Source: Sinorhizobium arboris LMG 14919
Lineage (GTDB): Bacteria; Pseudomonadota; Alphaproteobacteria; Rhizobiales; Rhizobiaceae
Length of the DNA: 64,000 bases
Reading direction: 5' to 3'
Assembly (NCBI RefSeq): GCF_000427465.1
Contig: NZ_ATYB01000014.1
Span: forward strand, 2,069,570 to 2,133,569
Made by a program: the position numbers and the translations under genes. Below the pieces are notes generated by a model. That model was not told where the DNA came from, did no database searches, and saw only the letters and a list, made by a program, of their open reading frames with translations. Of this stretch, positions 6,210 to 58,682 are shown one piece after another (position 1 is the first letter of the stretch; each line of letters starts with the position of its first letter).

Positions 6210-6215
6210 CGCGGC

Positions 6216-7316: not shown

Positions 7317-7442
7317 AAGGGACCTTTCCCCCAGAAGTTTATAACAGGACGTCGTCCAACAGAATCATCTGCCAGAAGATACCCGCTTGCGTTCGACTAT
7401 GTTAGGCCATTTCCCCTGGCCGAAGGCCGTATCCACCGGCAC

Positions 7443-7550: not shown

Positions 7551-7556
7551 ACGCCC

Positions 7557-8990: not shown

Positions 8991-8991
8991 A

Positions 8992-10452: not shown

Positions 10453-10483
10453 GAACTGCACGTCTCACATCGATATGATCTAA

Positions 10484-10585: not shown

Positions 10586-10618
10586 GAATCGCGAATCGTC
10601 CGCACTTTCATTTCACGG

Positions 10619-12765: not shown

Positions 12766-12771
12766 CGTCTC

Positions 12772-13797: not shown

Positions 13798-13811
13798 TCC
13801 GCCTCTCCACT

Positions 13812-14252
13812 CTATTGCGAACGCAGCCCCCGTCGCTTGCGCCCCTCCCTGGCCTCCGCCTGCGCCCTTGCAAACGCCTGCGGCTCCCAGAGCTGAAAAT
13901 GATCGCCCCGCCCGACGAAGGTCACGTCGTTCGAGATGCCGGTGTAGTCGCGGATGAAATCCGTCACCATCAGCCGGCCCTCCGGGTCGAGCTTCACATA
14001 GACGCCGCCGCCGTGCACGAGGAGCGACATCTCGTTGGCCGCATCCGAAAACGGATCCTCGGCGGCCATCTGCTTCTCGAACCGGTCCAGAAGCTCCGGC
14101 CCGCCGACGCTGATCGCCGGAAAGACGAAGTCCTGAAAACAGTATAACTCCCGCACCCCCGCCTCCGAAAGCGCGGCACGAAAGGCCGAAGGGACGGAGA
14201 CCCGCCCCTTGGCATCGATCCGGTTCGTAACATTTGACAAGAAGCGGTTCAT
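13812..14252 (-). CDS. mraZ: Transcriptional regulator MraZ
   Basis: A 146-residue AbrB-like swapped-hairpin DNA-binding protein that forms ring-shaped oligomers and represses its own operon in E. coli. Two MraZ repeats are visible: [21 protein letters not shown] near residue 8, and [18 protein letters not shown] near 85. It is the first gene of the operon. Its likely binding site is the four-box TGGG array at 14426-14460, about 175-210 bp upstream. Confidence 0.96.
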
Positions 14253-14665
14253 GACGCGAAACGGCCGCCCCCGACTGACGGACCATCATCATCGGCCCGT
14301 ACATACACTCGCACCGCGCACGGATCCCCCGCCGGACACATGCGTGTCCGCCTGATCCTTCCATCGACGGAAGCCTCGAATTTCGCGATGGCGGGCCATT
14401 GCATGGCCCTTGCGCAGTACCATTATGGGATAACATGGGACCAAATGGGCGTCAATGGGAGAAGCTCGTCAGCAGCCTTGCGGATGATCAAATATTGATA
14501 GGTTGTTAAGTTTAACAAAGGGTTACGATCCGAACCCTAATGCCTTGGAATCGCGCGCGAAAACGAGCCGCGCCGGCAAGGGCCGGCCAGCCTCGGCGAA
14601 TGATTCGCAGGAGCGGAGGGATTCAGGAGATGTGCTCCGCCGAAGTGACGAAAGCGGCAAAGAAA
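14253..14665. other. mraZ-rnpB intergenic region (413 bp)
   Basis: Presumed promoter region of the mur operon and 3' flank of rnpB. It holds the four TGGG boxes at 14426-14460 and an AT-rich stretch at 14488-14525, with GTTAAGTTTAAC around 14505 and one imperfect CtrA-like pair TTAA-N7-TTAC. A short inverted repeat (GCGGAG with CTCCGC) at about 14613-14640 may act in rnpB termination on the minus strand. I see no credible gene. Confidence 0.5.
14426..14460 (+). promoter_or_regulatory. MraZ-binding box array upstream of mraZ
   Basis: Four direct repeats, TGGGA, TGGGA, TGGGC and TGGGA, start at 14426, 14436, 14446 and 14456, each separated by exactly 5 nt. E. coli MraZ is known to bind TGGGN repeats with 5-nt spacers upstream of its own gene. 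Here the boxes read TGGG on the plus strand, that is opposite to mraZ transcription, and there are four rather than three. Binding is inferred. Confidence 0.8.
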
Positions 14666-15074
14666 AGAGCCAGTTGGCCTGTAAGCCGGGTTCTGTATGG
14701 CTTCGCCTCCGAGGAGACGAAACGTGGCAGCCATTCATCTGGGACTGCGCTTGCGCGCAGCCTCGTGCAACCCACCCGGACGACGCGCCTGGAAACCGGC
14801 TGGGCGCTTGCGCACCCGTGTCGTCCCTATTCGGTCTTGCTCCCGGTGGGGTTTGCCGTGCCGTCCATGTTGCCATGGCCGCGGTGGGCTCTTACCCCAC
14901 CCTTTCACCCTTACTCCGCAAGCGGAGCGGTCTGCTTTCTGTGGCACTTTCCCTGGGGTCACCCCCGCCGGACGTTATCCGGCACCGTGTTTCCGTGGAG
15001 CCCGGACTTTCCTCCCCCCGCGGCCTTTCGGCACTTGCGAGGCGCGGCTGCCCGGCCAACTGGCAGAGGCTCAT
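14666..15074 (-). ncRNA. rnpB: RNase P RNA (class A)
   Basis: Catalytic RNA of RNase P, which trims tRNA 5' leaders. On the minus strand the transcript has the universally conserved GAGGAAAGTCCGGGCTCC (complement near 14992-15009) in the 5' third and ACAGAACCCGGCTTACAGGC at its 3' end. The P1 helix forms between 5' GCCAGTTGGCC and 3' GGCCAACTGGC. The length is about 409 nt. The exact ends are estimated from the P1 pairing. It is transcribed toward the mraZ operon. Confidence 0.95.
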
Positions 15075-15134
15075 TAAACGACCGGGGCAGCAAGCGCCAG
15101 AGAAATCGGCGCTGCCGCACGGTCCTGCGGTTAC

Positions 15135-16322
15135 TTAGCGATACGCGACCGCGAAGTCCGTTTCGTACTCGTCCGCCTCGAGCCGACCGCCCGCCACCAG
15201 CACAGCGCCGAGCCTGCCGATCTCGTCGGAGCTCTTGGCAGCCTGGCCATTGCCGCCGGTGAGCACGGCGATGCGGTCGCTTGCGAAGCCTATGTAAGGA
15301 TAGCCGTGCCGCGTAAACGCCGTGACGCAAGGCGAATAATGCATCGAAACGGGTTTCAGCTCCGGTATCGTCTCGGCGAGCAGTGCGCGCAAGTGCTCGG
15401 CTGCTTCGGCGTTGGCGCTGCTTCGGAACCAGTCCCTGATCGCCGGCTCGCTGGCAAGGATCCGGTCGATCGGATCGCCGCCGATCTTTATGTAGTGTTT
15501 GCCATCGGCATAGGCAACCGGCGGCAACAGATAATAGCTTCTCTCCTGCTCCGGCGCGGCGCCGATCAGCGACGGCATGCCCGCATAGGAGGGGAGATCG
15601 TCCGCGCCGACTTCGGCAAAAAGCACGGTGCGCGCCTTCACTGTGAGATCGATCGGCCGTGGGAGAAGCGCCTGCGAAAGCGAGAAGCCGCCCGCGGCCA
15701 CCAGGGCGCGACCGGCCCGAACCAGGTGCCCGTCGATCGTCCTCACCACGACGTGATCGGAACCGTCTTCGACCGAGACCACCTCCGAGCGGATCACCCT
15801 CGCACCGGATTTCTCGGCGGCGATCGTCTGCGCCCGGACGAGCAAACGTGCATTTATGTAGCCTGCGCCGCCTGCCTCGTGGATCCCGGCATAGCCTTGC
15901 GGGAAGCAGAACCAGGGAAACCGCCCGGCAAGTTCCTCGCCAAGGAGCAGAGGCGCCTCGACGCCGAGCCTGTTCCGGGCACGCTCGACATTCTCGAGAT
16001 AATCGAACGTGCCGCCCGGAACGGGAGCCGCGATCAGGCAGCCGACGGGGAAATGGAACTCGATGCCGCTCTCCTGTGCAATTTCCGGATAGCGATCGAT
16101 CGAGCGACGAGCCAGACGCGCCCAACACGGATCGTCGTCGATGGTGCGGGTGATTCGGGCATTGTCGTAATGGCTCGCGAAAACGCCGCCGTGGTTCGCC
16201 CAGTCCTCCGGTTCATCGGGGCCGATGAGAGCGACATCGGCGCCTGCCCTTGCAAGGTGACGAGCCGCCGCCGCGCCCATCATGCCCTTGCCAACGATGA
16301 CGACGTCAACGCTTTCCGACAT
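15135..16322 (-). CDS. FAD-dependent oxidoreductase, DAO/glycine-sarcosine oxidase family
   Basis: A 395-residue flavoenzyme of the DAO family. The N-terminal Rossmann motif VDVVIVGKGMMGAAAARHL begins near residue 5, and GGNGQAAKSSDEIG near 350 is typical of the C-terminal FAD contact. Similarity is to monomeric sarcosine or N-methyl amino acid oxidases, but the substrate cannot be told. An ATG 72 bp upstream is also in frame. The ATG at 16322 is preferred because a GGAG site lies about 11 nt away and the Rossmann fold starts immediately. No obvious operon partners. Confidence 0.8.
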   Translation of the reverse strand: MSESVDVVIVGKGMMGAAAARHLARAGADVALIGPDEPEDWANHGGVFASHYDNARITRTIDDDPCWARLARRSIDRYPEIAQESGIEFHFPVGCLIAAPVPGGTFDYLENVERARNRLGVEAPLLLGEELAGRFPWFCFPQGYAGIHEAGGAGYINARLLVRAQTIAAEKSGARVIRSEVVSVEDGSDHVVVRTIDGHLVRAGRALVAAGGFSLSQALLPRPIDLTVKARTVLFAEVGADDLPSYAGMPSLIGAAPEQERSYYLLPPVAYADGKHYIKIGGDPIDRILASEPAIRDWFRSSANAEAAEHLRALLAETIPELKPVSMHYSPCVTAFTRHGYPYIGFASDRIAVLTGGNGQAAKSSDEIGRLGAVLVAGGRLEADEYETDFAVAYR

Positions 16323-45420: not shown

Positions 45421-45450
45421 AAGCCCGGAAAACATGAGTTTTCCGGGCTT
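45421..45450 (-). terminator. Intrinsic terminator of the amine/TRAP operon
   Basis: AAGCCCGGAAAAC pairs with GTTTTCCGGGCTT (13 bp) around a 4-nt loop. On the minus strand the stem runs straight into a T tract (GGGCTTTTTT). It lies 23 bp past the stop of the iron-type alcohol dehydrogenase and closes the gene run that begins at 53537. Confidence 0.9.
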
Positions 45451-45473: not shown

Positions 45474-46619
45474 TCAAATGCATTCGGCGAAGAGCTTCTT
45501 AGCAGCATCGAGCGTCAGTTCGACGGGATTGCCGCCGGCCGTCGGATCGACGATCGCCATCTCGGCCATCTCGCCGATACGGTCCGTGCCGACGCCGAGT
45601 GCGGAAAGCTTGTCCGGCACCCCGAGTTCCTCCCGGAGCTGCAGCACATAGTCATAGAAACCGTCGAAGCCGCCCGCAATGCCGAGATAGGCGGCGGCGC
45701 GACCGATCTTCTCCTCGATCGCGGAGCGGTTGAATCGCAGGACCGGGGGCATCACCACGGCGTTGGTCATGCCGTGATGGGTGTTGTAGATCGCACCGAC
45801 GGGATGCGACAGCGAGTGGATCGCGCCGAGGCCCTTTTGGAAAGCGACCGCCCCCATGGCCGCCGCGCTCATCATATGGGCACGGGCTTCGAGATCCGCT
45901 CCGTCCCGGTATGCACGCGGCAGGTATTCCTTGACGAGCCGCATGCCTTCGAGCGCGATACCCGCCGACATCGGGTGATAGAAGGGAGACGAATAGGCTT
46001 CGAGGCAATGGGCAAAGGCATCCATGCCCGTGCCGGCGGTGATCACGTCAGGCATGCCTACCGTCAGTTCCGGATCGCAGATGGTGACGCCAGGCAGAAA
46101 CTTCGGATGGAAGATCACTTTCTTCACATGGCTTGCCGAATTGGTGATGACGCTGGCGCGCCCCACTTCGGATCCGGTACCGGCGGTTGTCGGAACGGCG
46201 ACGATCGGCGCGATGCCGTCGACGCTCGCGCGGGTCCACCAGTCGCCGATATCCTCGAAGTCCCAGACCGGCCGCGTCTGGCCGGCCATGAAGGCGACGC
46301 ACTTGCCCAGGTCGAGGCCCGAGCCGCCACCGAAGGCGACGACGCCGTCATGGCCGCCGTCACGGAACGCTTTCACGCCGGCTTCGAGGTTCCTGTCGGT
46401 CGGGTTCGGATCGACGTCCGCGAAGATCGCGCGTCCGAGGCCACCCGCTTCAAGAATATCGAGCGCCTGCTGCGTGATCGCCATCGGGGCAAGGCCGCGA
46501 TCCGTGATGAGCATCGGCTTCTTCATGCCGAGCGCCTTGCAGTGGTCGGCAAGCTCCTTGATCCGGCCGGCGCCGAACTTGACGGCGGTCGGATAGCTCC
46601 AGTTGGCGGTGATGGTCAT
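45474..46619 (-). CDS. Iron-containing (type III) alcohol dehydrogenase
   Basis: A 381-residue NAD(P)-dependent metal alcohol dehydrogenase: GGGSGLDLGKCVAFMAG near residue 95 is the dinucleotide loop, PTTAGTGSEVGRASVITN near 138, and the metal ligands lie in MDAFAHCLEAYSSP near 192 and GAIHSLSHPVGAIYNTHHG near 260. It interconverts alcohols and aldehydes. Its ATG overlaps the upstream aldehyde dehydrogenase stop by 4 bp, so in this operon the pair likely takes an alcohol group to an acid. Last gene before the terminator. Confidence 0.92.
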   Translation of the reverse strand: MTITANWSYPTAVKFGAGRIKELADHCKALGMKKPMLITDRGLAPMAITQQALDILEAGGLGRAIFADVDPNPTDRNLEAGVKAFRDGGHDGVVAFGGGSGLDLGKCVAFMAGQTRPVWDFEDIGDWWTRASVDGIAPIVAVPTTAGTGSEVGRASVITNSASHVKKVIFHPKFLPGVTICDPELTVGMPDVITAGTGMDAFAHCLEAYSSPFYHPMSAGIALEGMRLVKEYLPRAYRDGADLEARAHMMSAAAMGAVAFQKGLGAIHSLSHPVGAIYNTHHGMTNAVVMPPVLRFNRSAIEEKIGRAAAYLGIAGGFDGFYDYVLQLREELGVPDKLSALGVGTDRIGEMAEMAIVDPTAGGNPVELTLDAAKKLFAECI

Positions 46620-48001
46620 GCGGTCACTTTCTTCAGGTGGTAGGATTTCGGGCGGGTAAGGTTGTGGAAGCCGAGCACCGAGAGCGAGCCGCCCCGGCCG
46701 GTCTCCTTGACTCCGGTCCAGCACAGCGCCGGGTCGAGATAGTCAGCACGATTCATGAAAACCGTGCCGGTTTCGAGCTCACGACCGATCTGTGCGGCGC
46801 GCTCCGCATCCTTCGTCCAGAGCGACACGGTGAGACCGTACTGGCTGTCGTTCATCAACTCGATCGCCTCGGCGTCGCTCTTCACCTTCATGATGCCCAC
46901 GGCCGGCCCGAAAGTTTCCTCGCGCATGAACTCCATGGAATGATCGACATCGACAAGAACCTGCGGCGCCAGGTAGGCACCGCCGTCGTCCTGCGGGAAG
47001 AGCTTCGGGTCGATCAGCGCCTTGGCACCCCTGGAGATCGCATCGGCGATCTGATTGCGCACGGTTGCCGCAAAGCGCTTGTTTGCCATCGGTCCGAGCG
47101 TCGTATCGGGATCGAGGGGGTTGCCAAGTCTGTAATTCGAAACCCAGGCGACCGATTTCTCGACAAAGGCGTCATAGAGCGACTCATGCACATAGATGCG
47201 CTCGATGCCACAGCAGCACTGGCCGGAATTGTAGGTCGCGCCATCCATGAGGGTGTCGACGGCCGCGTCGAGATCGGCATCCTCCATCACATAGCCCGGA
47301 TCCTTGCCGCCGAGTTCGAGTCCGTGGCCGGTGAAAGTCCCGGCCGCCGCCCGCTCGATCGACCGGCCGCCTTCGACCGATCCGGTGAAGTTGATGAAGT
47401 CGAAGCTCTTGGCGGCAATCAGCGCCGCCGTCGTGTCGTGATCCAGAAAAAGATTCTGGAAAACGTCCGCCGGAACGCCCGCCTCGATGAAGGCGCGCAC
47501 CATGCGCTCGCCGACGAGGATCGTCTGGCTGGCGTGTTTGAGGATCACGGTATTGCCGGCCATCAGCGCCGGCGCGACCGTGTTGATCGCGGTCATATAG
47601 GGATAGTTCCACGGAGCGATAACGAAGACGACGCCATGCGGCTCGCGCTCGATGCGCCGTTCGAAGCGGTCACTCTCCTCCACGACGAGCGGCTTCAGCG
47701 CATCGGCGGCGATCGAGGCGACATAATTGGAGCGCTCGTTGAAGCCCTTGAATTCGCCGCCATAGCGCACCGGCCGACCCATCTGCCAGGCAAGTTCCGG
47801 CACGACCTCGTCAACCATCTCGTTAAGGCGAGCGACGCCGGCAAGCACCAGCTTCACGCGCTCCTCGAGCGGGCGCTTGGCCCAGGCCTTCTGCGCGAGG
47901 CGCGCATGTGCCACGGCCTGCCTGGCCAACTCCAGCGGCATTGCCGGGCGTTCGGCATAAACCTCGCCATTGACCGGCGATATACATTTGATCATCGTCA
48001 T
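46616..48001 (-). CDS. Aldehyde dehydrogenase family protein
   Basis: A 461-residue NAD(P)-dependent aldehyde dehydrogenase. PWNYPYMTAINTVAPALMAG near residue 130 binds the cofactor, the catalytic base Glu is in GLELGGKDPGYV near 230, the nucleophile Cys is in NSGQCCCGIERIYV near 265, and EETFGPAVGIMKV lies near 365. Substrate class is open. Similar proteins oxidise amino-aldehydes and succinic semialdehyde. It is coupled to the alcohol dehydrogenase and follows the glutamine-synthetase-like gene after a 191-bp gap filled by an intergenic repeat. Confidence 0.93.
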   Translation of the reverse strand: MTMIKCISPVNGEVYAERPAMPLELARQAVAHARLAQKAWAKRPLEERVKLVLAGVARLNEMVDEVVPELAWQMGRPVRYGGEFKGFNERSNYVASIAADALKPLVVEESDRFERRIEREPHGVVFVIAPWNYPYMTAINTVAPALMAGNTVILKHASQTILVGERMVRAFIEAGVPADVFQNLFLDHDTTAALIAAKSFDFINFTGSVEGGRSIERAAAGTFTGHGLELGGKDPGYVMEDADLDAAVDTLMDGATYNSGQCCCGIERIYVHESLYDAFVEKSVAWVSNYRLGNPLDPDTTLGPMANKRFAATVRNQIADAISRGAKALIDPKLFPQDDGGAYLAPQVLVDVDHSMEFMREETFGPAVGIMKVKSDAEAIELMNDSQYGLTVSLWTKDAERAAQIGRELETGTVFMNRADYLDPALCWTGVKETGRGGSLSVLGFHNLTRPKSYHLKKVTA

Positions 48002-48034
48002 GATCGTCTTCCTGTTCTCAATTCAGAATGAATT

Positions 48035-48184
48035 CCCCTCCCCAACCTCCTCCCCGAAATGGGGAAGGGCTTAACCTGCGGCACCGCTCCGCACACCAGT
48101 TGGGCCATGCCACTTGTGGAGGCATCGGCTTTCGGTAGGAGCGTGCCGCAACGTAGCCCCTTCCCTTGTGGGGAGGGGTTGGGG
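48035..48184. repeat. About 150-bp intergenic repeat with inverted ends inside the operon
   Basis: The ends CCCCAACCTCCTCCCC (48040-48055) and GGGGAGGGGTTGGGG (48170-48184) are near-perfect inverse complements, and the right end stops 8 bp short of the glutamine-synthetase-like stop. The interior has smaller hairpins and no reading frame. C-rich elements with such ends are common between rhizobial genes (recalled). A folded structure here could separate expression of the ligase from the two dehydrogenases. Confidence 0.65.
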
Positions 48185-48192
48185 ACGGGTGT

Positions 48193-49563
48193 TTACGCCC
48201 GTTCGAAACCGCGCGCCACCTCCCAGTCGGTCACCCGCCGGTCGTATTCCTGCTGCTCCCATTCCGCGGCGTGCACATAGTGATCGACAACCTCCTCGCC
48301 GAAGGCGGCGCGCAGCATCTTCGAACCGGACAGCGCCTGGGTCGCCTCTCTCAGCGTATGCGGAATCTCGCGCACTTCCTTGCCCTGATAGGCATCGCCC
48401 ACGAAAGGCGCCTCGAGTTCCATCTGGTTCTCTATGCCCGAGAGGCCCGCCGCGATCAGGGCGGCAAAGGCGAGGTAGGGGTTCAAATCGGAGCCGCCGA
48501 CGCGGCATTCGATCCGGATCGCCTTGCTGCCTTCGCCGCAGAGCCGATAGCCGGCGGTGCGGTTGTCCTTGCTCCAGATCGCCTTGGTCGGTGCAAAGGT
48601 ACCGGCCATGAAGCGTTTGTAGGAGTTGATATAGGGCGCCAGGAAATAGGTGACCTCGCTTGCATGGGCGAGCTGGCCCGCCACATAGTGGCGCATGAGA
48701 TCGGACATTCCATATTGCCCGTTCTTGTCGAAGAACAGCGGCGTTTCGCCGTCCTTGCTCCAGAGCGACTGGTGGATGTGCGACGAGGAGCCGGCGGCCG
48801 AGTAGTTCCACTTGGCAAGGAAGGTGATCGCCTTGCCGCGCTGCCAGGCGATTTCCTTGCAGCCGTTTTTGATGATCGCATGCCGGTCCGCCATCGTGAC
48901 GGCGTCGGCATAACGGACGTTGATCTCCTCCTGGCCGGCGGACGCCTCCCCCTTGGAATTTTCGACCGGGATCCCGGCGCCCTGCAGGCCGTTGCGGATC
49001 GCCCGCATCACGTCCTCTTCCTTGGTCGTCTGGAAGATGTGGTAATCCTCGTTGTAGCCGCTGACCAGCTGCAGGTCGCGATATCCCGAAAGCCTCGCAT
49101 CGTCATAGGACTGATCGAAGAGGAAGAATTCGAGCTCGCTGGCCATAAGGGCCTTGATGCCCATGGCTTCGAGGCGCGCCACCTGCTTCTTCAGGATGGC
49201 GCGCGGCGAATGCGGCACTTCCGCATGCGTGTGGTGGTCCAGCATGTCGCAGAGAACCAGCGCCGTGCCTTCCAGCCACGGGATGCGCCGGAGCGTGGAA
49301 AGGTCCGGCTTCATCGTATAGTCGCCGTAGCCTTTCTCCCAGCCTGTCGCCTTGTAGCCGGGAACGGTCTCCATCTCCATGTCTGTCGCAAGCAGATAGT
49401 TGCAGCTATGCGTTTCCTTCCATGCGCTTTCGACGAAGTACTCCGCATGAAAGCGCTTGCCCATCAGGCGGCCCTGCATGTCGACCTGGCAGGCGAGCAC
49501 CGTGTCGATCCGGCCCTCAGCCACGTCTCTCTTCAAATCATCGAATGTATAGTTCGCGCTCAT
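48193..49563 (-). CDS. Glutamine synthetase family ligase (PuuA/gamma-glutamylamide synthetase-like)
   Basis: A 456-residue GS-fold enzyme. The N-terminal beta-grasp domain includes DTVLACQVDMQGRLMGKRF. The catalytic barrel carries MASELEFFLFD near residue 145 (metal Glu), GQEEINVRYADAV near 215, GSSSHIHQSLW near 275, and SKAIRIECRVGGSDLNPYLA near 350. Unlike GlnA it lacks the C-terminal adenylylation-loop signature and sits with two dehydrogenases and a transporter. Such GS-like ligases join glutamate to amines (putrescine, isopropylamine, ethanolamine). The amine is unknown. An AGGA site precedes the ATG at 49563. dctP lies 95 bp upstream. Confidence 0.87.
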   Translation of the reverse strand: MSANYTFDDLKRDVAEGRIDTVLACQVDMQGRLMGKRFHAEYFVESAWKETHSCNYLLATDMEMETVPGYKATGWEKGYGDYTMKPDLSTLRRIPWLEGTALVLCDMLDHHTHAEVPHSPRAILKKQVARLEAMGIKALMASELEFFLFDQSYDDARLSGYRDLQLVSGYNEDYHIFQTTKEEDVMRAIRNGLQGAGIPVENSKGEASAGQEEINVRYADAVTMADRHAIIKNGCKEIAWQRGKAITFLAKWNYSAAGSSSHIHQSLWSKDGETPLFFDKNGQYGMSDLMRHYVAGQLAHASEVTYFLAPYINSYKRFMAGTFAPTKAIWSKDNRTAGYRLCGEGSKAIRIECRVGGSDLNPYLAFAALIAAGLSGIENQMELEAPFVGDAYQGKEVREIPHTLREATQALSGSKMLRAAFGEEVVDHYVHAAEWEQQEYDRRVTDWEVARGFERA

Positions 49564-49658
49564 GGGAAGGTCCTGGTTCCGGTCTCGTACCGGTAGAAAT
49601 TGTTCCGTCCGCATCCGGGGCCGCATTGCAGCCCCGGATGTGAGTTGCAGGGCAATGA

Positions 49659-50708
49659 TCAGCTGTAACGATAGGGCGGCCCGGCCTTCTCCATCGTCTC
49701 GCGGTACTTCTTCAAAATCTCTACGACCTTCGCCGCGCGCGGGCTCGTGGCGGCAATTTCGTCCCAGAATTTCAGGGCCTCCGCTTCTACCGTCTTCCAT
49801 TCCTCGTCCGGAATGGTCGTCAGTTCCAGCTTGGTGCCCTCGGCGCGCAACTTTGCCTCACCTCCCCAATACCAGTGCTGACGATAGTAATGGGAGGAGT
49901 CGATGCAGAGGCGGAACAGCGTCTGCAGATGCTCGGGCACCTCCTTCCACCGTGCGGAGTTCGCGAAAAACGACCCGCACCAGGCGCCGGAGATATTGTT
50001 CGTCAGGAAGTATTTGGTGACGTCCGCCCAGCCTACGGTGTAGTCCTCTGTGATCCCCGACCAGGCGAGGCCGTCGAGTTCGCCCGTCTGCATGGCGACC
50101 TGCACATCCTCCCAGGGCAGAGTGACCGGGACGATGCCGAAACGCGTCAGGAACTTGCCGGCGGTCGGGAAGGTGAAGATGCGCAGGCCCTTGAGGTCCG
50201 CAAGCGTCTTGATCGGCTTCACCGTTGCGAAGTTGCAGGGATCCCAGGATCCGGCCGAGAGCCACGTGACCCCTTCGACTTCGCCATAGGCCTCGGCCCA
50301 GATCTCGTTGAGGCCGTACTGATGGAACAGCGTCGGCACGTCGAGACTATAGCGTGAGGCGAAGGGGAAATAGCCGCCGAACACCTTGATGTCGACCGGC
50401 GATGCCATCGAGTCGTCATCGCTCTGGACTGCGTCGATCGTGCCGGCCTGCATGGCGCGGAACAGTTCGCCGGTCGGCACGAGCTGGTCGGCCGTGTAAA
50501 GGTCGATCTGCATCTCGCCGTTGGCGGCTTTGTTGAAAGCGTCGATCGCCGGCTTGATGACATGCTCGGCGAGCGCCGGGCCGGCATAGGTCTGCAGGCG
50601 CCAGGTGATCTTGCCCGATTGCGCACGTACTGCCGGGGCAGCAAGCGCAGTGGTTCCGGCCGCGGCGGCGAGCCCGGCCTTCTTCAGAAAGTCGCGTCTG
50701 TTGGTCAT
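49659..50708 (-). CDS. TRAP transporter solute-binding protein (DctP family), Tat signal
   Basis: A 349-residue periplasmic binding protein with a twin-arginine signal TNRRDFLKKAGLAAAAG ending near AVRA, and the DctP fold: ITWRLQTYAGPALAEHVIKP near residue 32, KGLRIFTFPTAGKFLTRFG near 160 with the Arg that usually binds a carboxylate, and TGELDGLAWSG near 205. It is of the class seen with unusual carboxylate or keto-acid substrates. ATG 50708 follows AGAGGGA. An in-frame TTG 27 bp upstream lacks support. Encoded after dctQ and dctM in the same operon, behind a GAAA-tetraloop hairpin at 50782-50797. Confidence 0.9.
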   Translation of the reverse strand: MTNRRDFLKKAGLAAAAGTTALAAPAVRAQSGKITWRLQTYAGPALAEHVIKPAIDAFNKAANGEMQIDLYTADQLVPTGELFRAMQAGTIDAVQSDDDSMASPVDIKVFGGYFPFASRYSLDVPTLFHQYGLNEIWAEAYGEVEGVTWLSAGSWDPCNFATVKPIKTLADLKGLRIFTFPTAGKFLTRFGIVPVTLPWEDVQVAMQTGELDGLAWSGITEDYTVGWADVTKYFLTNNISGAWCGSFFANSARWKEVPEHLQTLFRLCIDSSHYYRQHWYWGGEAKLRAEGTKLELTTIPDEEWKTVEAEALKFWDEIAATSPRAAKVVEILKKYRETMEKAGPPYRYS

Positions 50709-50804
50709 CGTTCGTTTCCCTCTGTTTTCGTTCAACGTGTACTTCTTCTCTGGAGCCCCCCATCGGAGGGGTACCCTCTTGCGGCGCGAAAGCGCCGGCT
50801 CCCG

Positions 50805-52130
50805 TCAGCCCCTTACATAGACATGATGCGGCAGCCACAGTGCGATCTCCGGGAACGCCGTGACGATCGCCAGCCCCACGATCATCACCAGGACGAAGGG
50901 GAGCACCGATTTGTAGATATCCGTCAGCGATATCTCCGGAGGAGCCATCGCACGCATCAGGAACAGATTGTAGCCGAAGGGCGGGGTCATGTAGGCGATC
51001 TGGCAGGTGATCGTGTAGAGCACGCCGTACCAGATCAGATCGAAGCCGAGGCTGCCGACGAGCGGTATGTAGAGCGGCGCGACGATGACCAGCATAGCCG
51101 TATCGTCGAGGAATGTGCCCATGATCAGATAGGAAATCTGCATCAGGATCAGCACTTCCCAAGGGCCAAGCCCCCACTTCTCCAAGAACAGGTACTCGAT
51201 TGCCTTGACCGCCCCGAGACCGTCGAATACCGCGCCGAAGCAGAGCGCCGCCAGGATGATCCACATGAACATGCAGGAAATTCCGAGCGTCTGTTCGATC
51301 GTCTTGTCGAAGACGGTCCATGTCAGGCGTCCCTTCCACCAGGCCGCAGCGAGCGCGGAAAGCGCCCCCACGGCCGAGCTCTCGACGAGGCTTGTGACGC
51401 CCATCACGAAAAGACCCATCATCAGGAAGAAGATCATGAAGGGCAGGATGCCGGCCCGCAGCAGCTTGAGCTTTTCGGCAAGCGGGATGTCGCGCTCCTC
51501 CTTCGGAAGCGCCGGCCCCAGATGCGGCTGGATCTTGCAGCGGACGATCACATAGATCGAAAACAGCAGTGCCAGCAGCAACCCCGGAAACACACCTGCC
51601 AGCCAGAGCTGGCCTACCGGCTGACGCGCGATCATGCCGTAGAGCACCAGCACCACGCTCGGCGGCACCAGGATGCCGAGCGAACTGCCCGCCTGGATGA
51701 CACCGGTAACCATCGTCTTGTCATAGCCGCGGCGCAGGAGCTCGGGGAGCGCAATGGTCGCGCCGATCGCCATCCCCGCGACGCTGAGCCCGTTCATCGC
51801 GGAAATGATGACCATCAGCCCGATGGTGCCGAGCGCAAGCCCGCCGCGCAAGCCGCCCATCCAGACGTGGAACATCTTGTAGAGATCCTCGGCGATTCCG
51901 GACTCCGAAAGCATGTAGCCCATGAAAATGAAGAGCGGCAAAGTGAGCAGCGGATACCATTTCATCAGCTTCATCGAGGCGGCGAAGGCCATTTCGAAGC
52001 CGCCATTGCCCCAGAGGAAGGCAGCCGAGACTGCGCCGACGACGCCGATCGCCGCGAAGACCCTCTGCCCGGTCAGCATCGTCATCATCATGGACGAGAA
52101 CATCATGAAGGCGATCATTTCGTAGCTCAT
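50805..52130 (-). CDS. TRAP transporter large permease (DctM family)
   Basis: A 441-residue inner-membrane protein with about twelve hydrophobic segments and DctM hallmarks: TLPLFIFMGYMLSESGIAED near residue 68, AMNGLSVAGMAIGATIALPE near 115, and GSSLGILVPPSVVLVLYGMI near 150. It drives uptake with the sodium or proton gradient, with the DctQ partner overlapping by 4 bp (ATGA) and DctP encoded just downstream. The longer frame upstream is inside dctQ and is not used. Confidence 0.94.
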   Translation of the reverse strand: MSYEMIAFMMFSSMMMTMLTGQRVFAAIGVVGAVSAAFLWGNGGFEMAFAASMKLMKWYPLLTLPLFIFMGYMLSESGIAEDLYKMFHVWMGGLRGGLALGTIGLMVIISAMNGLSVAGMAIGATIALPELLRRGYDKTMVTGVIQAGSSLGILVPPSVVLVLYGMIARQPVGQLWLAGVFPGLLLALLFSIYVIVRCKIQPHLGPALPKEERDIPLAEKLKLLRAGILPFMIFFLMMGLFVMGVTSLVESSAVGALSALAAAWWKGRLTWTVFDKTIEQTLGISCMFMWIILAALCFGAVFDGLGAVKAIEYLFLEKWGLGPWEVLILMQISYLIMGTFLDDTAMLVIVAPLYIPLVGSLGFDLIWYGVLYTITCQIAYMTPPFGYNLFLMRAMAPPEISLTDIYKSVLPFVLVMIVGLAIVTAFPEIALWLPHHVYVRG

Positions 52131-52636
52131 GCGATCGGCCTCCCCATCGCCCGGGCGAGGTCCTTGATGAAGATGGACGTCGCCTGCAGGAAGGTGAGCG
52201 CGACGCCGATCGTCATGACGATCTTGATCGGCGCCATGTAGGGCGACCAGCTCGAATAGCTGGTCTCGCCGTATTTCAGCGCATAGGCGGTGCTGGAAAC
52301 GCCCCCATAGAACAGGAAGCCCAGATAGACGAAGAGCATGAGGATGGTAATCGCATCGACCGCAGCACGCGTGCGCGCCGTCCAGCGTCCATAGACCAGG
52401 TCCATACGCACATGGCTGTCCAGCTGGAGCGAATAGGCCCCGCCCAGCAGGTAGTACGCCGCCATCACGAACTGGGCCATTTCGAGCGTCCAGAGCGACG
52501 GCAGCAGCCAGGCCTTCGATACGGACGAATAGAGCAGAATGCCCATCATCGCGAAGATCAGATACATGGTCGCTCGGCCGACGCATCGGTTGAATCCGTC
52601 GACCGCGCGCACATAGGTTTTCAAGTATTCAGGCAT
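52127..52636 (-). CDS. TRAP transporter small permease (DctQ family)
   Basis: A 169-residue membrane protein with four helices, including ATMYLIFAMMGILLYSSVSK near residue 20 and LEMAQFVMAAYYLLGGAYSL near 50, the pattern of DctQ subunits that pair with DctM. Its stop overlaps the dctM start. The 127-bp gap to the upstream hydrolase gene contains no terminator, so co-transcription is likely. Confidence 0.9.
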   Translation of the reverse strand: MPEYLKTYVRAVDGFNRCVGRATMYLIFAMMGILLYSSVSKAWLLPSLWTLEMAQFVMAAYYLLGGAYSLQLDSHVRMDLVYGRWTARTRAAVDAITILMLFVYLGFLFYGGVSSTAYALKYGETSYSSWSPYMAPIKIVMTIGVALTFLQATSIFIKDLARAMGRPIA

Positions 52637-52763
52637 CGCGGCGTCCTGCCCCGCGCGCGCCGTCAGGCCGAGGAAGCTCCTCTCCCATAGCTGCCGATCC
52701 GATCATGGGCTGCATTTCTCCTGTTCAATGTCATCACCGCGGCCTTGCCGCTCCCCGGGTCTT

Positions 52764-53537
52764 TTATTGTGCTGGAAGGGCCGCCACGCTCTTTGCGAGC
52801 AGCCCCGCCAGATAATCGGCCATGACCCTTTGGCCGATTTTATCGCGGATGAGGTCGTTGCGGATCTCGATCATGACGTTGGGCACGCCAAGGCGGATGC
52901 CGTATTCGATCAGGCTGTGCGTCACACCGTCAGCCGGTCCGTAAGGCTCGTTGCGGCGCACGTCGTATCCCGCCTCCCCGATCGCTGCGGCGGCAAGCAT
53001 GCGCTCCGCGAGCCGGCTGTCCGAGTCGTGCAGAATGCCCAACTCGACTGTCCGCGGCTTGCCGAAATAGATCGGCGTGAAACTATGCATGGTCACGAGA
53101 ACCGGCTGCCTGCCCGCGGCCTTGCGGTCTGCGACCGCACGCGTGACCGCCTCGTGAAACGGCAGGTAGATCTCGTCCACTCGCGACTGCCGCTCTGCCG
53201 CGGACATCGTCCTGTTGCCGGGCACCTCATAGACCTCGCTGAGGACTGGCATCGCCGCGTCGGACTCCGGCGGCCTGTTGCAGTCATAGGCGAGCCGCGA
53301 AAAGCGTTGGTGGATCAGCGTGCCGTCGAGCTTTTCGGACAACAATTGGGAGACCGCCAGCGCGCCGGGGTCCCAGGCGATATGGCTCTCGAGCGCATCC
53401 TTCGAAAGGCCGAGCGTTCCCAAACGTTCGGGCATGCGGTTGGAGGCATGCTCGCAGACGAAGAGGAATTCTCCCTTCGCCCCGGGATTCTCTATTGCGA
53501 CCGGTCCGCCCTCTGCCTGCGTCAAAATTCCCGTCAA
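52764..53537 (-). CDS. N-formylglutamate amidohydrolase family protein
   Basis: A 257-residue FGase-fold hydrolase: EFLFVCEHASNRMPE near residue 22 with the first metal His, FSRLAYDCNRPP near 78, VLVTMHSFTPIYFG near 145 and LGILHDSDSRLAERM near 165. Classical members (HutG/FGase) release formate from N-formylglutamate in histidine breakdown. No hut genes lie near. As first gene of a transporter/GS/dehydrogenase run it may instead cleave an N-acyl or gamma-glutamyl amide (inference). It starts at a TTG with GGGGAG 7 nt upstream. No ATG fits. Confidence 0.85.
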   Translation of the reverse strand: MTGILTQAEGGPVAIENPGAKGEFLFVCEHASNRMPERLGTLGLSKDALESHIAWDPGALAVSQLLSEKLDGTLIHQRFSRLAYDCNRPPESDAAMPVLSEVYEVPGNRTMSAAERQSRVDEIYLPFHEAVTRAVADRKAAGRQPVLVTMHSFTPIYFGKPRTVELGILHDSDSRLAERMLAAAAIGEAGYDVRRNEPYGPADGVTHSLIEYGIRLGVPNVMIEIRNDLIRDKIGQRVMADYLAGLLAKSVAALPAQ

Positions 53538-53707: not shown

Positions 53708-54586
53708 TTGAACGGCAACACGGCTTCCATGACGGTGTCGGATGTGATCAACGCACATTTCGCCGCGCTGACGCGCGCCGAAAGGCAGTTGGCGGAGACA
53801 CTTCTCGAAAATTACCCGGTCTCCGGTCTCGGCTCGATCACCACGGTTGCCGAGAACGCCGGCGTTTCGACGCCGACGGTCGCCCGCATGGTTCAGAAGC
53901 TCGGTTTTCGGGGATTCCCGGATTTCCAGGCGCGGCTACACCAGGAGCTCGAGGCGACCATCTCCAATCCGATCGCGAAACACGATCGCTGGGCGGCAAG
54001 CGCACCGGGAACCCACACGCTCAACCGTTTCGCCGATGCGATCATGGGCAATATGCGCCAGACGCTCTCCCAGATCGAACCTTCCGAATTCGACGCGGCC
54101 GCAGCCCTCGTCGCCGATCTGAAACGCAAGGTCTATCTCGTTGGGGGGCGCATTACCCGATCGCTTGCGGACTATTTCTTCACTCATCTTCAGGTCATCC
54201 GAACCGGCGTGACGCAGATCGCCGCGAACCCGAGTTCGTGGCCGCATTACGTGCTGGACATGCGGCCGGGGGACGTCCTCATCCTGTTCGACATCCGCCG
54301 TTACGAGCAGGAGATGGAAACGCTCGCCCGCTTCGCCCGAAACCGCGGCGTCGAGATCATCCTCTTCACCGACCAGTGGGGCTCTCCGGTCGCCAAGTCT
54401 TCATCGAAGGTCTTCCGCGCCCGGATCGAGGTTCCCTCGGCCTGGGACAGTTCCGTCATGCTCCTGTTCCTCGTGGAGACGCTGATCGAGGCCGTACAGA
54501 GCTCGAACTGGGACGAAACGCGGGACCGGATGAAGGCGCTGGAGGGCCTGTTCGATTCCACACGCATTTTCCGCAAGCCGGTCTAG
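53708..54586 (+). CDS. RpiR family transcriptional regulator (HTH plus SIS domain)
   Basis: A 292-residue regulator: N-terminal RpiR HTH (residues 10-85, SGLGSITTVAENAGVSTPTV with recognition helix before KLGFRGFPDFQARL), and a C-terminal SIS domain (VYLVGGRITRSLADYFFTHL near 140, VLILFDIRRYEQEMETLARF near 200) that normally binds sugar phosphates. TTG at 53708 is preferred because GAGGGG lies 6 nt upstream. ATG 53729 has no site. Divergent from the amidohydrolase-TRAP-GS operon and probably its regulator. It may also control the ABC importer downstream. Confidence 0.88.
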   Translation: MNGNTASMTVSDVINAHFAALTRAERQLAETLLENYPVSGLGSITTVAENAGVSTPTVARMVQKLGFRGFPDFQARLHQELEATISNPIAKHDRWAASAPGTHTLNRFADAIMGNMRQTLSQIEPSEFDAAAALVADLKRKVYLVGGRITRSLADYFFTHLQVIRTGVTQIAANPSSWPHYVLDMRPGDVLILFDIRRYEQEMETLARFARNRGVEIILFTDQWGSPVAKSSSKVFRARIEVPSAWDSSVMLLFLVETLIEAVQSSNWDETRDRMKALEGLFDSTRIFRKPV

Positions 54587-54771: not shown

Positions 54772-55875
54772 GTGATTTCAATGACTCAACGTCTGCTCTC
54801 GCTCTCGACTGCCATGCTGCTCGCAACGACGGCAGTAGCTGTTGCCGAGCCGAGCGAGGAGCTCATCGCAGCCGCCAAGAAGGAAGGCACGCTAACGACA
54901 ATCGCGCTCCCGCACACTTGGTGCGGGTACGGCGATCTGATCGCCGGCTTCAAGGCAAAGTACGGCATCGAAGTCAACGAACTGAACCCGGATGCGGGCT
55001 CCGGCGACGAGATCGAGGCGATCAAGGCCAACAAGGGCAATACCGGCCCGCAGGCACCTGACGTCATCGACGTCGGCCTCTCGTTCGGCCCCTCGGCCAA
55101 GGCCGAAGGCCTGATCCAGCCCTATAAGGTATCGACCTGGGACACGATCCCGGACGCCGCCAAGGATCCGGAAGGCTTCTGGTACGGTGATTATTACGGC
55201 GTCCTCTCCTTCGTGGTGAACACCGACATCGTCAAGGACGTGCCCAAGGACTGGGCGGACCTCAAGAAGTCCGACTATGCAAACTCGATCGCGCTCGCCG
55301 GCGATCCGCGCGCATCCAACCAGGCGGTGCAGGCGGTCTACGCCGCCGGCCTCGCAGCCGGCGAAACGGACGCGGCAAAGGCCGGCGAAGCGGGCCTGGC
55401 CTTCTTCGCCGAGGTAAACAAGGCCGGCAACTTCGTCCCGGTCATCGGCAAGTCCGCCTCGCTTGCACAAGGGTCGACGCCGATCATCATCGCCTGGGAC
55501 TATAACGGCCTCTCCTGGCGCGACAGCTTGAACGGCAATCCGCCGGTCGAAGTCGTCGTTCCGGATTCCGGCGTCGTCGCCGGCGTCTACGTGCAGGCGA
55601 TCTCTGCCTTTGCTCCGCATCCGAACGCTGCCAAGCTCTGGATGGAATATCTCTATTCGGACGAAGGTCAGCTCGGCTGGCTGAAGGGCTATTGCCACCC
55701 GATCCGCTTCAACGACCTCGTCAAGAACGGCAAGGTGCCGCAGGAGATGCTCGACAAGCTGCCGCCGGCCGAATCCTACGAAAAGGCCGTGTTCCCGACG
55801 CTCGACGAGCAGGCCAAGGGCAAGGAAGCGATCACCACCAAGTGGGATAGCGTCGTCGGCGCAAGCGTGAAGTAA
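54772..55875 (+). CDS. ABC transporter substrate-binding protein (bacterial SBP family 1)
   Basis: A 367-residue periplasmic protein with signal peptide ending VAVAEP (about residue 26). The mature part, with LPHTWCGYGDLIAGFKAKYG near residue 46, GSGDEIEAIKANKGN near 78, APDVIDVGLSFGPSAKAEG near 98 and IIIAWDYNGLSWRD near 235, fits the iron/thiamine/polyamine/aminophosphonate group of binding proteins. The conserved Tyr pair of ferric-iron binders is not evident, so iron is unlikely. GTG 54772 is used: AAGGAG lies 7 nt upstream, too far from ATG 54781. First gene of a four-gene importer. Confidence 0.88.
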   Translation: MISMTQRLLSLSTAMLLATTAVAVAEPSEELIAAAKKEGTLTTIALPHTWCGYGDLIAGFKAKYGIEVNELNPDAGSGDEIEAIKANKGNTGPQAPDVIDVGLSFGPSAKAEGLIQPYKVSTWDTIPDAAKDPEGFWYGDYYGVLSFVVNTDIVKDVPKDWADLKKSDYANSIALAGDPRASNQAVQAVYAAGLAAGETDAAKAGEAGLAFFAEVNKAGNFVPVIGKSASLAQGSTPIIIAWDYNGLSWRDSLNGNPPVEVVVPDSGVVAGVYVQAISAFAPHPNAAKLWMEYLYSDEGQLGWLKGYCHPIRFNDLVKNGKVPQEMLDKLPPAESYEKAVFPTLDEQAKGKEAITTKWDSVVGASVK

Positions 55876-55952
55876 CTGCCATTGCGTGCCTCCCTGCCCG
55901 AAGTTTGGCGGGGAGGTCATTTTCCTCCGATGCCGGGACAGCCGAAAGCTTT

Positions 55953-56831
55953 ATGACCACGACAACAGCAGCACCTCTGATCAGCAAACGAGCGATTATC
56001 GACTGGCTGGGCATTGCACCCTTCATGATCTTCGCGCTGATGTTCCTGGTCGTCCCGACGCTCTATCTCGTCACCGGCGCCTTTCTGACGCCGGCGGGCG
56101 AGTTCACCTTCAAGAACATCGCCGACCTCTTCACCCCGTCGATCCTCTCCGCCTACTGGATTTCGATCCGGGTGTCGGTCGCTTCGTCGCTCGGCGGCGC
56201 CCTCATCGGCTTCTTCCTTGCCTGGGCCATCGTGCTCGGCGGCATGCCGACGTGGATCCGTTCCGGCCTTCTTACCTTTTCCGGCGTCGCCTCCAACTTC
56301 GCGGGCGTTCCGCTCGCCTTCGCCTTTCTCGCCACCCTCGGCCGCACCGGGCTCGTCACCGTGTTTCTGCGCGACTGGTTCGGCTTCAATCTCTATTCGA
56401 CCGGCTTCAATCTCCTGAGCTTCCTCGGCCTCACCATCACCTACATGTATTTCCAGATCCCGCTGATGGTGCTGATCCTGACGCCGGCGCTCGACGGCAT
56501 GAAGAAGGAGTGGCGCGAAGCCTCCGAAATTCTCGGCGCCTCCACCTGGCAATACTGGCGCATGGTGGCGCTGCCGATCCTCTGGCCGAGCCTGCTGGGC
56601 ACGACGCTCCTGCTCTTCGCCAACGCCTTCGGCGCGATCGCCACCGCCTACGCGCTGACCGGCAGTTCGCTCAATATCGTGCCGATCCTGCTCTATGCGC
56701 AGATCCGTGGCGACGTGCTCCATAATCCGAACCTCGGCTATGCGCTGGCGCTCGGCATGATCGTCATCACCGGCATCTCCAATATTCTCTATATCTGGCT
56801 GCGGATCCGCGCCGAACGGTGGCAGAAATGA
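55953..56831 (+). CDS. ABC transporter permease 1 (polyamine/iron-type)
   Basis: A 292-residue inner-membrane permease with six helices and the EAA loop EWREASEILGASTWQYWRMV near residue 190 that docks to the ATPase. The architecture is that of PotB-like permeases. An upstream TTG in frame is unlikely. It follows the binding protein by 77 bp and overlaps the next permease by 4 bp. Confidence 0.9.
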   Translation: MTTTTAAPLISKRAIIDWLGIAPFMIFALMFLVVPTLYLVTGAFLTPAGEFTFKNIADLFTPSILSAYWISIRVSVASSLGGALIGFFLAWAIVLGGMPTWIRSGLLTFSGVASNFAGVPLAFAFLATLGRTGLVTVFLRDWFGFNLYSTGFNLLSFLGLTITYMYFQIPLMVLILTPALDGMKKEWREASEILGASTWQYWRMVALPILWPSLLGTTLLLFANAFGAIATAYALTGSSLNIVPILLYAQIRGDVLHNPNLGYALALGMIVITGISNILYIWLRIRAERWQK

Positions 56832-57616
56832 AAGCAAGACGTCTCGGCGCCTGGATCGCCATCGCCATCGGAGCGAGCTACTTCATCATTCCGCTGCTCG
56901 GAACGCTGGAATTCTCGCTGCGCATGCGCCGCGACGCCTATTCCTTCGACGCCTACCGGTCGGTCTTCTCCGACTTCCAGTTTCGCGAGACCTTCGGCTA
57001 TTCGATGCTGATGGCGTTTTTCACGATCATCTTCGGCATGCTGCTGGTGGTGCCGACGGCCTATTGGGTGCGGCTGCGCTTGCCGCAGGTCCGCCCGATT
57101 ATCGAGTTCATCACGCTGCTGCCGCTCGTTATCCCCGCGATCGTCATCGTCTTCGGCTATCTCAGGCTTTACAACTCCTCGTCGATCCTGCCGCTGACCG
57201 GCTCCACCTCCGGCACCAACGCCCTCCTGATGTTTTCCTATATGACGCTGTCGCTTCCTTACATGTATCGCGCCGTCGACACGGCGATGCGGGCGATCGA
57301 CGTCAGAACGCTCACGGAGGCTGCCGAAAGCCTGGGCGCCAAATGGCCAACCATTCTCTTTCGCTGCATTTTTCCGAATGTGATGAGCGGCGTACTCTCC
57401 GGGGCCTTCATCACCTTCGCGATCGTCATGGGCGAATTCACCATGGCGGCGCTGCTCAACCGGCCCGCCTTCGGCCCCTATCTGCAGCTTGTCGGCGCCA
57501 ACAAAGCCTACGAGCCCTCGGCGCTCGCCGTCATCGCGTTCGCGATCACCTGGCTCAGCATGGGACTGATCCAGCTCGTGTCGCGCTTCCAGAAATCCGC
57601 TCCGGCCAAGGCTTGA
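56828..57616 (+). CDS. ABC transporter permease 2 (polyamine/iron-type)
   Basis: A 262-residue PotC-like permease: six helices, MKARRLGAWIAIAIGASYFI at the start, and the EAA loop TLTEAAESLGAKWPTILFRC near residue 165. It is coupled by ATGA overlap to permease 1 and lies 4 bp before the ATPase gene. It forms the membrane heterodimer of the importer. Confidence 0.9.
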   Translation: MKARRLGAWIAIAIGASYFIIPLLGTLEFSLRMRRDAYSFDAYRSVFSDFQFRETFGYSMLMAFFTIIFGMLLVVPTAYWVRLRLPQVRPIIEFITLLPLVIPAIVIVFGYLRLYNSSSILPLTGSTSGTNALLMFSYMTLSLPYMYRAVDTAMRAIDVRTLTEAAESLGAKWPTILFRCIFPNVMSGVLSGAFITFAIVMGEFTMAALLNRPAFGPYLQLVGANKAYEPSALAVIAFAITWLSMGLIQLVSRFQKSAPAKA

Positions 57617-57620
57617 TCAA

Positions 57621-58682
57621 ATGGCATTCCTGCAACTGACCAACATACAGAAATCCTTCGGCCCGGTTCAGGTCGTGCATAATTTCGACATGGGAATCGA
57701 AAAAGGAGAGTTCGTCTCCTTCCTCGGTCCCTCCGGCTGCGGCAAGACGACGGTTCTGCGCATGATTGCCGGTTTCGAGACGCCCTCCGGGGGCTCGATC
57801 TTCATCGACGGCAAGGACCAGGGCGCGCTGAAGCCGAACCAGCGAAATATCGGCATGGTTTTTCAGGCCTATGCGCTCTTTCCCAACATGAACGTTCACG
57901 ACAATGTCGCCTTCGGCCTCAAGGTCGCCGGCGCCTCCAAAACGGAGACCGCGGCCCGGGTGAAGCAGATGCTCGGATTGATCAAGCTCGAGCATCTGGC
58001 GGATCGCTTCCCCTATCAACTCTCCGGCGGCCAGCAGCAGCGCGTGGCGCTTGCCCGCGCCATAGCCGTCAAGCCGCAGGTGCTGCTCCTCGACGAGCCG
58101 CTTTCCGCGCTCGATGCAAAAATCCGCATCTCGCTGCGGGAGGAAATCCGGCAGATCCAGCAGCAGCTCGGCATCACCACGGTGTTCGTGACGCACGACC
58201 AGGAGGAGGCACTGTCGATCTCCGACCGGATCGTCGTCATGAATGCCGGCCGCGCCGATCAGATCGGCACGCCCTTCGAAATCTACAACACCCCGGCGAC
58301 ACGCTTCGTCGCCTCCTTCGTCGGCACGCTCAACATAATCGAGGGCAAGGTGGCCGATCCCGCAAGCGGTGCCGTCACCATCGGCGGGCAGCGGATTTCG
58401 CTGAAAGAGCCGATAGCCGGGGCGAAGGGCGGCGACAGCATTTCGCTGGCACTGAGGCCGGAAGCGGGCTCGATCGCCGAGGGCGCCAGGGGCGATACCG
58501 CGCTTCCGGGGCAAGTCGTATCGAGAAGCTTTCTCGGCTCCGTCATCCGCACCAAGCTGCGGGTCGGCGAAGACATCATCTCCTTCGACATGTTCAACGA
58601 CCCGGGCATGGCCCCACCGGTCGCCGGCGAGAGCGTCACGCTGCGTTTCGCGGCAAAGGACCTGCTCGTCATCCGCGAATAG
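57621..58682 (+). CDS. ABC transporter ATP-binding protein (PotA/FbpC-like)
   Basis: A 353-residue ATPase: Walker A FLGPSGCGKTTVLRM near residue 36, signature YQLSGGQQQRVALARA near 133, Walker B LLLDEPLSALD near 155, switch His in FVTHDQEEALSISD near 190. A C-terminal TOBE-like regulatory domain (about 240-353) is present, as in polyamine and iron importers. With the three preceding genes it completes a binding-protein-dependent importer. The substrate is unknown: polyamine, thiamine-like, or aminophosphonate remain possible. Confidence 0.92.
   Translation: MAFLQLTNIQKSFGPVQVVHNFDMGIEKGEFVSFLGPSGCGKTTVLRMIAGFETPSGGSIFIDGKDQGALKPNQRNIGMVFQAYALFPNMNVHDNVAFGLKVAGASKTETAARVKQMLGLIKLEHLADRFPYQLSGGQQQRVALARAIAVKPQVLLLDEPLSALDAKIRISLREEIRQIQQQLGITTVFVTHDQEEALSISDRIVVMNAGRADQIGTPFEIYNTPATRFVASFVGTLNIIEGKVADPASGAVTIGGQRISLKEPIAGAKGGDSISLALRPEAGSIAEGARGDTALPGQVVSRSFLGSVIRTKLRVGEDIISFDMFNDPGMAPPVAGESVTLRFAAKDLLVIRE

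Follow-up and report, generated by a model that had tools for sequence, protein, structure and literature searches.

A conserved operon for predicted ethanolamine gamma-glutamylation with a TRAP importer in Sinorhizobium arboris LMG 14919

In the Puu (putrescine) and Ipu (isopropylamine) pathways, gamma-glutamyl amides are made by ligases resembling glutamine synthetase (GS). The eut route for ethanolamine is cobalamin-dependent, unlike the gamma-glutamylation route for this compound. A stretch of 64,000 nucleotides from Sinorhizobium arboris LMG 14919 (contig NZ_ATYB01000014.1, positions 2,069,570 to 2,133,569 of the forward strand; hereafter the window) was analysed, and judging from sequence, seven minus-strand genes at positions 45474 to 53537 very probably form an ethanolamine gamma-glutamylation operon. 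In Phaeobacter MED193 an operon of the order RpiR-GGAH-EtoV-EtoW-EtoX-ETAGA-GAADDH-GETADH has been reported, five proteins of which (EtoV and EtoW not being among them in the part of the table consulted) were raised on phosphorylethanolamine; for Chromohalobacter salexigens and A. tumefaciens C58 that paper cites Vetting et al. 2015 (PMC10132767). Table 2 of a review gives PF00120, PF00465, PF00171 and PF05013 for C. salexigens (PMC9397018). GlnA4 of Streptomyces coelicolor has been shown to be a gamma-glutamylethanolamide synthetase, and a member of the N-formylglutamate amidohydrolase (FGase) family was proposed to act on gamma-glutamylglycine, with glycine and glutamate as end products (PMC6529630). 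A figure legend of that paper labels the Streptomyces hydrolase a 'glutamine amidotransferase', while the discussion places SCO1615, apparently the same gene, in the formylglutamate amidohydrolase family (PMC6529630).

All seven genes of the preliminary description were recovered from reading frames and Pfam matches, in the order and span that it gave. In the proposed pathway a tripartite ATP-independent periplasmic (TRAP) system of the EtoVWX type would import ethanolamine, and the GS-like ligase (48193..49563, minus strand; Gln-synt_C, 347 bits), a predicted ethanolamine gamma-glutamylase, would use ATP to join it to the gamma-carboxylate of glutamate, yielding gamma-glutamylethanolamide. 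The alcohol end would be oxidised to gamma-glutamylglycine by an iron alcohol dehydrogenase (Fe-ADH; 45474..46619, minus strand; PF00465/PF25137, 161+139 bits), a predicted gamma-glutamylethanolamide dehydrogenase, together with an aldehyde dehydrogenase (ALDH; 46616..48001, minus strand; PF00171, 404 bits) predicted to convert gamma-glutamyl-aminoacetaldehyde to gamma-glutamylglycine. An FGase-family enzyme of 257 residues (52764..53537, minus strand; PF05013, 154 bits), the predicted gamma-glutamylglycine amidohydrolase (GGAH), would split gamma-glutamylglycine into glutamate and glycine, and the glycine would then enter central metabolism. An RpiR-family protein probably controls the operon. 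The FGase, GS-like ligase, ALDH and Fe-ADH are encoded side by side on one strand; the activities and the regulation given for the window genes are predictions.

The chemistry that had been put forward for this locus, in which an imported amino alcohol is glutamylated, oxidised by two dehydrogenases and cleaved by the FGase, is well supported by the comparisons below. The suggestion that the pathway was undescribed did not hold, as an account of the same operon, TRAP transporter and FGase role in Phaeobacter MED193 had already been published (PMC10132767). Nor is the FGase role, taken earlier to be a new one for the family, new for this operon: earlier work had also proposed it for C. salexigens as well as Streptomyces (PMC6529630, PMC9397018). 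The locus is a real, well-conserved operon that has already been described.

To gauge conservation, one genome per species was searched with nine aligned GS sequences; the best 80 of at least 581 loci, mostly from Rhizobiaceae, were kept, and an importer or FGase was scored as absent when no tblastn match at E 1e-15 covered half of the query. The FGase, GS, ALDH and Fe-ADH genes had been expected to stay together in relatives, and they do so in 75 of the 80 loci; since these four enzymes are found together so often, the arrangement is not due to chance. The FGase gene lies upstream of the GS gene on the same strand in 75 loci, and the ALDH and Fe-ADH genes lie downstream of it in 78. Three of the five loci that lack an FGase are on short contigs or at contig ends (L058, L083 and L113); the other two are from Bosea (L110 and L118). 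An RpiR homologue is present in 74 loci, all of them among the 75 with an FGase, and RpiR is likely to be the local regulator of the operon. Of the seven genes, the TRAP genes are not kept in the same way, being retained in only 14 of the 80 loci. Plasmids carry the gene set too: a GS match was obtained in 684 plasmid records, of which 60 were listed and 16 neighbourhoods read, and all four enzyme genes are present in 10 of the 11 whose GS was at least 55% identical, only Paraburkholderia sabiae differing.

The name of PF05013 would make the window FGase an N-formylglutamate deformylase, and it may be asked whether it is a plain deformylase or acts elsewhere, the gamma-glutamyl amide being cleaved by an unlinked glutaminase-like enzyme; the two Bosea loci without an FGase match fit such a scheme. 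However, the window FGase gave no match to the HutG model TIGR02017 up to E 0.001, and a HutG function was rejected for it on this ground. A separate FGase of the genome passes that model (376 bits against a cut-off of 278.75) and sits just downstream of what appears by eye to be a histidine ammonia-lyase frame. Across 41 genomes of the order, this one included and with one of its GS genes added by hand, at least 18 of 65 low-scoring FGases (below 200 bits on PF05013), three of them in this genome, had a listed GS gene no more than 8 kb away, compared with at least one of 57 high-scoring FGases (above 200 bits); chance adjacency is about 2% for a 4.2 Mb genome with five GS genes. The single high-scoring neighbour (G035) shares its cluster with a low-scoring FGase. 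A score above 200 bits is not equivalent to HutG, since the FGase L001 reaches 257 bits on PF05013 and 119 of the required 278.75 on TIGR02017. With the FGase also placed upstream of GS across the conserved loci, the deformylase explanation is unlikely.

A family tree of the FGase against HutG had been proposed as a check. In a tree of 20 sequences, several of them on very long branches, the cassette FGases, the other GS-linked FGases and L004 fell apart from HutG, L001 and L007 (support 100/99), so that FGases of the window type lie outside HutG. The solved structure nearest to the window FGase was 2odf (Atu2144; E 1.3e-92). The cassette FGases and all six other FGases of the genome have in common a D-x-N-R motif at positions 85-88 and an invariant Glu at 224. 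The N-R pair and the Glu presumably match the residues with which carboxypeptidase A, an enzyme of similar fold, binds the carboxylate and carries out catalysis. Such carboxypeptidase-like residues would account for the oxidation of the amide to an acid ahead of cleavage.

The ligase was expected to be distinct from glutamine synthetase, and its scores agree: on the GlnA and type III GS models (TIGR00653 and TIGR03105) it reached 257 of 429 and 246 of 470 bits, respectively. Its glutamine synthetase catalytic domain (347 bits) might still suggest a true glutamine synthetase in a mixed bag of genes, and that is barely conceivable given the score of 257 where GlnA requires 429, the conserved cassette and an identity of about 30% to the GS that scores highest in the genome (474 bits on PF00120); the assignment was rejected because the ligase falls below the curated GS cut-offs. 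A gamma-glutamylputrescine synthetase of the PuuA type was likewise rejected, with 198 bits on GGputSyn (NF045547) where 650 are needed. The closest PDB chains to the ligase were 11zs and 5dm3 (E<1e-200), and it is 39.7% identical to an annotated ipuC. Its AlphaFold model is poor, with a mean pLDDT of 47.8.

The substrate was approached through the binding protein DctP (49659..50708, minus strand; DctP Pfam, 77.5 bits), a predicted ethanolamine-binding TRAP protein resembling EtoX, whose signal peptide is of the twin-arginine translocation (Tat) type, the Tat signal model scoring above cut-off. Its best PDB match was 4uab/4xf5 (E 7.6e-161, 538.6 bits); no other chain exceeded 73 bits. The structure 4UAB is that of Csal_0678 of C. 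salexigens with ethanolamine, in which Glu220 holds both the amine and the hydroxyl (PMC12410723). A carboxylate-binding Arg occurs in 96.8% of DctP proteins, Phe being its commonest substitute, and Csal_0678 is without this conserved TRAP Arg and has ethanolamine as ligand (PMC4646407).

Gene order, gene content, conservation and the residues of the ligand site could all be observed directly. In the window DctP, numbered in the 358-residue frame, the alignment places Phe187 at the TRAP Arg column, and Arg is found there in all 16 other DctP proteins of the genome. An in-frame stop cuts one of these 16 frames short. At C2:302734-303561 of the same genome, a DctP gene is interrupted in frame by a TGA and is probably a pseudogene. 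From the shared Arg and the published account (PMC4646407), the Phe187 column probably equals SiaP Arg147, so that the window protein carries Phe where a carboxylate-type DctP has Arg. Across 18 cassette DctP proteins, the window one included, the column holds Phe in 15, Tyr in two and Leu in one. Position 230 is Glu in all 18, whereas none of the others has it, Asp occurring in two of those 16; Glu230 would correspond to Glu220 of Csal_0678. The match to 4uab, the loss of the Arg and Glu230 together give the profile of an ethanolamine-type TRAP binding protein such as Csal_0678 or EtoX. TRAP import had been called unusual here, which is fair in that it is atypical for such a ligand, but the case was already in print (PMC4646407).

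The same machinery could have another small amino alcohol as its main natural substrate, for example L-alaninol (2-amino-1-propanol), which would be converted to gamma-glutamyl-alanine and then alanine. The protein in 4xf5 has the same sequence as that in 4uab, its ligand is reported to be 2-amino-1-propanol, and the Ipu pathway passes through alaninol. This substrate is nevertheless very improbable, because cassettes adjoin glycine and glyoxylate genes and because the homologous EtoX of Phaeobacter MED193 binds ethanolamine with a Kd of 7.9 uM, and not PE, PC, G1P or G3P (PMC10132767).

For the ethanolamine pathway, genomic context points to glycine or glyoxylate as the product, with a step from glycine to glyoxylate as a conjecture. 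After the cassette of Salipiger abyssi come glyA and an L-serine ammonia-lyase gene. Genes of the beta-hydroxyaspartate cycle (bhc) adjoin the cassette on Aminobacter aminovorans pAA03, Aminobacter NyZ550 pMET3 and a Paracoccus pantotrophus plasmid, as well as in a locus from a metagenome-assembled genome, L107; these bhc-linked loci are L016, L017, L039 and L107. In SC52 a malate synthase gene stands behind the RpiR gene. Such neighbours are rare among the 80 loci: bhc genes adjoin one of them, glyA and serine deaminase genes none, and most have no neighbour of a glycine or glyoxylate type.

The importer is the variable part of the cassette. Among the 80 loci, 14 have the TRAP set, 47 a permease of the APC type like that of L020, and 19 neither. 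Fifteen of these 19 have a gap of 1.7-1.8 kb between FGase and GS, and the two gaps examined (Rhizobium L063 and Agrobacterium leguminum L095) encode proteins near the ethanolamine permease model TIGR00908, at 374 and 359 bits against a cut-off of 381.75. The other four are the two Bosea loci, which have no FGase match, and L088 and L107, whose gaps measure only 199 and 71 bases, respectively. In Thermomicrobium, whose GS is 52% identical, a permease two genes downstream scores 436 bits on TIGR00908, above the cut-off. The exchange can be seen within the genus: L020 (Sinorhizobium meliloti Ak57) matches the window in ten pieces at 91-97% DNA identity, with 98% in the gap between RpiR and FGase, and has a permease gene (10358-11905) where the window has its TRAP genes (49659-52636). 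L040, at 86-87% DNA identity to the window, has TRAP genes. Among 150 genomes of the order, this one counted, 54 have a DctP homologue at E <= 1e-100, and on this figure and the distribution of TRAP and permease genes we take the cassette to be a common operon with exchangeable importers.

Several observations count against an ethanolamine pathway that ends in FGase cleavage, or limit it. The published FGase step itself rests on prediction and proteomics, without an assay, in the parts of the literature consulted. In the FGase tree the cassette FGases have no supported clade of their own and share a polytomy with those of L022 and L023, two further loci of this genome. In the Bosea loci L110 and L118, GS, ALDH and Fe-ADH occur with no FGase match within 10 kb, and a different hydrolase may serve there. 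In Arthrobacter U41 a related GS (49% identical) adjoins a PuuD-type hydrolase, and a dehydrogenase of the 3-oxoacyl-ACP reductase type replaces Fe-ADH. Both cases look like the swap of one hydrolase for another, which is consistent with the role proposed for the FGase. The four bhc-linked cassettes are alike in sequence and may represent one event only, and the L020 permease falls below every permease cut-off. The P. sabiae locus (L031) has a GS that is 63% identical, accompanied by a PuuD-type hydrolase but by neither ALDH nor ADH; its ligase is probably put to a different use, and the neighbourhood indicates that the pathway cannot be read from GS identity alone.

Two of these loci have further neighbours. 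Annotated genes beside the P. sabiae ligase include a homoserine O-succinyltransferase and a 2-aminoethylphosphonate-pyruvate transaminase, and inspection by eye suggests a GMC-type oxidoreductase and a MocR-like regulator for frames that precede the Bosea cassettes.

At the head of the operon the RpiR gene, which had been described as divergent, was found at 53708..54586 on the plus strand (PF01418 (HTH_6) and PF01380 (SIS)). Beside it a divergent ATP-binding cassette (ABC) importer, comprising a substrate-binding protein (SBP), two permeases and an ATPase, occupies 54772..58682 on the plus strand. Its SBP is nearest to 2-aminoethylphosphonate SBP models, far below their cut-off (62 of 310 bits), and has a homologue in 67 of the 80 loci; four of the 13 without one (L058, L070, L083 and L113) are short. 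No SBP homologue was found in the flanks read of L016-L018, L030, L036 and L038, from Aminobacter, Paracoccus and other Rhodobacterales. The ABC importer was rejected as an obligatory part on account of these six cassettes, and is probably not essential to the pathway.

The remaining TRAP genes encode the small permease DctQ (EtoV-like; 52127..52636, minus strand; PF04290, 62.8 bits) and the large permease DctM (EtoW-like; 50805..52130, minus strand; PF06808, 225 bits). The overlap reported for the ALDH and Fe-ADH frames was confirmed as an ATGA at 46616-46619, and the DctQ and DctM frames share an ATGA at 52127-52130. The starts were reassigned, most likely to 49563 for GS, 50708 for DctP, 46619 for Fe-ADH and 52130 for DctM. 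A PuuD-type gene, said to be missing, was indeed not found among the ten proteins scanned. The claim of one strong terminator stood in so far as the hairpin scan located a stem of 13 pairs with a T tail (45421..45450, minus strand), but this site falls just outside the span that had been given for the operon. The whole scan held 10 terminator-like sites compared with 8.1 in shuffled sequences (standard deviation 2.6), which is no excess.

The genome contains two further FGase and GS pairs outside the window, L022 and L023. Some gene names in these loci and in the two Bosea loci were read by eye, in L023 all but those of GS and FGase. L022 (C5:768000-786000, 6359-15678) comprises a permease, an FGase and a class III aminotransferase gene, with a GS gene 51% identical to that of the window, an ALDH gene and a dimethylformamidase-like gene running divergently; the same set is carried by a Rhizobium CB3171 plasmid (L033). 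L023 (C3:122000-140000, 1889-15887) has GS and RpiR genes divergent from an FGase gene, an isochorismatase-like gene and an ABC importer of the branched-chain type, near MttB-like and dimethylglycine dehydrogenase-like genes, and its GS is closest to GGputSyn (246 of 650 bits). These pairs suggest other gamma-glutamylation routes based on an FGase, the less known part of this biology, and L022 is possibly an undescribed one.

A transaminase-type diamine route of the L022 kind, with the FGase doing the job of PuuD, can be proposed only tentatively. Three aminotransferase neighbourhoods were read among 15 listed of 196 plasmid records that matched the aminotransferase. Rhodobacteraceae M382 (L137, 6983-11999) has the order aminotransferase-FGase-GS-ALDH, after which come a P1 peptidase gene and the genes of an ABC importer. 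In Pseudorhizobium flavum (L139, 6983-9814) aminotransferase and GS genes precede one for a P1 peptidase and an ABC importer with a spermidine/putrescine annotation. In Burkholderia vietnamiensis G4 a 76%-identical aminotransferase occurs with permease and dimethylformamidase-like genes. Against the diamine route, no FGase is annotated with the P. flavum pair, and neither FGase nor GS in the B. vietnamiensis stretch read. No description of an aminotransferase route was found in the portions consulted of the literature on FGases with putrescine and aminotransferases. More broadly, hydrolysis of gamma-glutamyl amino acids may be the general function of FGase-family members other than HutG, which would serve several gamma-glutamylation routes, and the extra pairs are testable candidates for other amines.

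Phosphatidylethanolamine yields ethanolamine, and the operon would let soil and plant-associated bacteria recycle membrane lipid nitrogen. The results also suggest that many rhizobial genes annotated 'N-formylglutamate amidohydrolase' or 'glutamine synthetase family protein' are misnamed.

Among the known systems, Puu and Ipu differ from the window operon in having a PuuD-type hydrolase and other oxidases, and the window ligase is unlike that of Puu by its GGputSyn score. The GlnA4 pathway of S. coelicolor resembles the window in its GS-like ligase acting on ethanolamine and in glycine and glutamate as proposed products, but it has a short-chain dehydrogenase in place of Fe-ADH and no TRAP transporter in the passages that describe it (PMC6529630). 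C. salexigens has the same four enzyme families as the window, together with Csal_0678, the ethanolamine-binding protein of which the window DctP is a close homologue, the likeness being one of families. The operon of Phaeobacter MED193, as far as its published account was consulted, has the same eight genes in identical order and the same predicted reactions (PMC10132767); this likeness is one of gene order, not of sequence alignment, and the window differs in the additional divergent ABC importer beyond RpiR.

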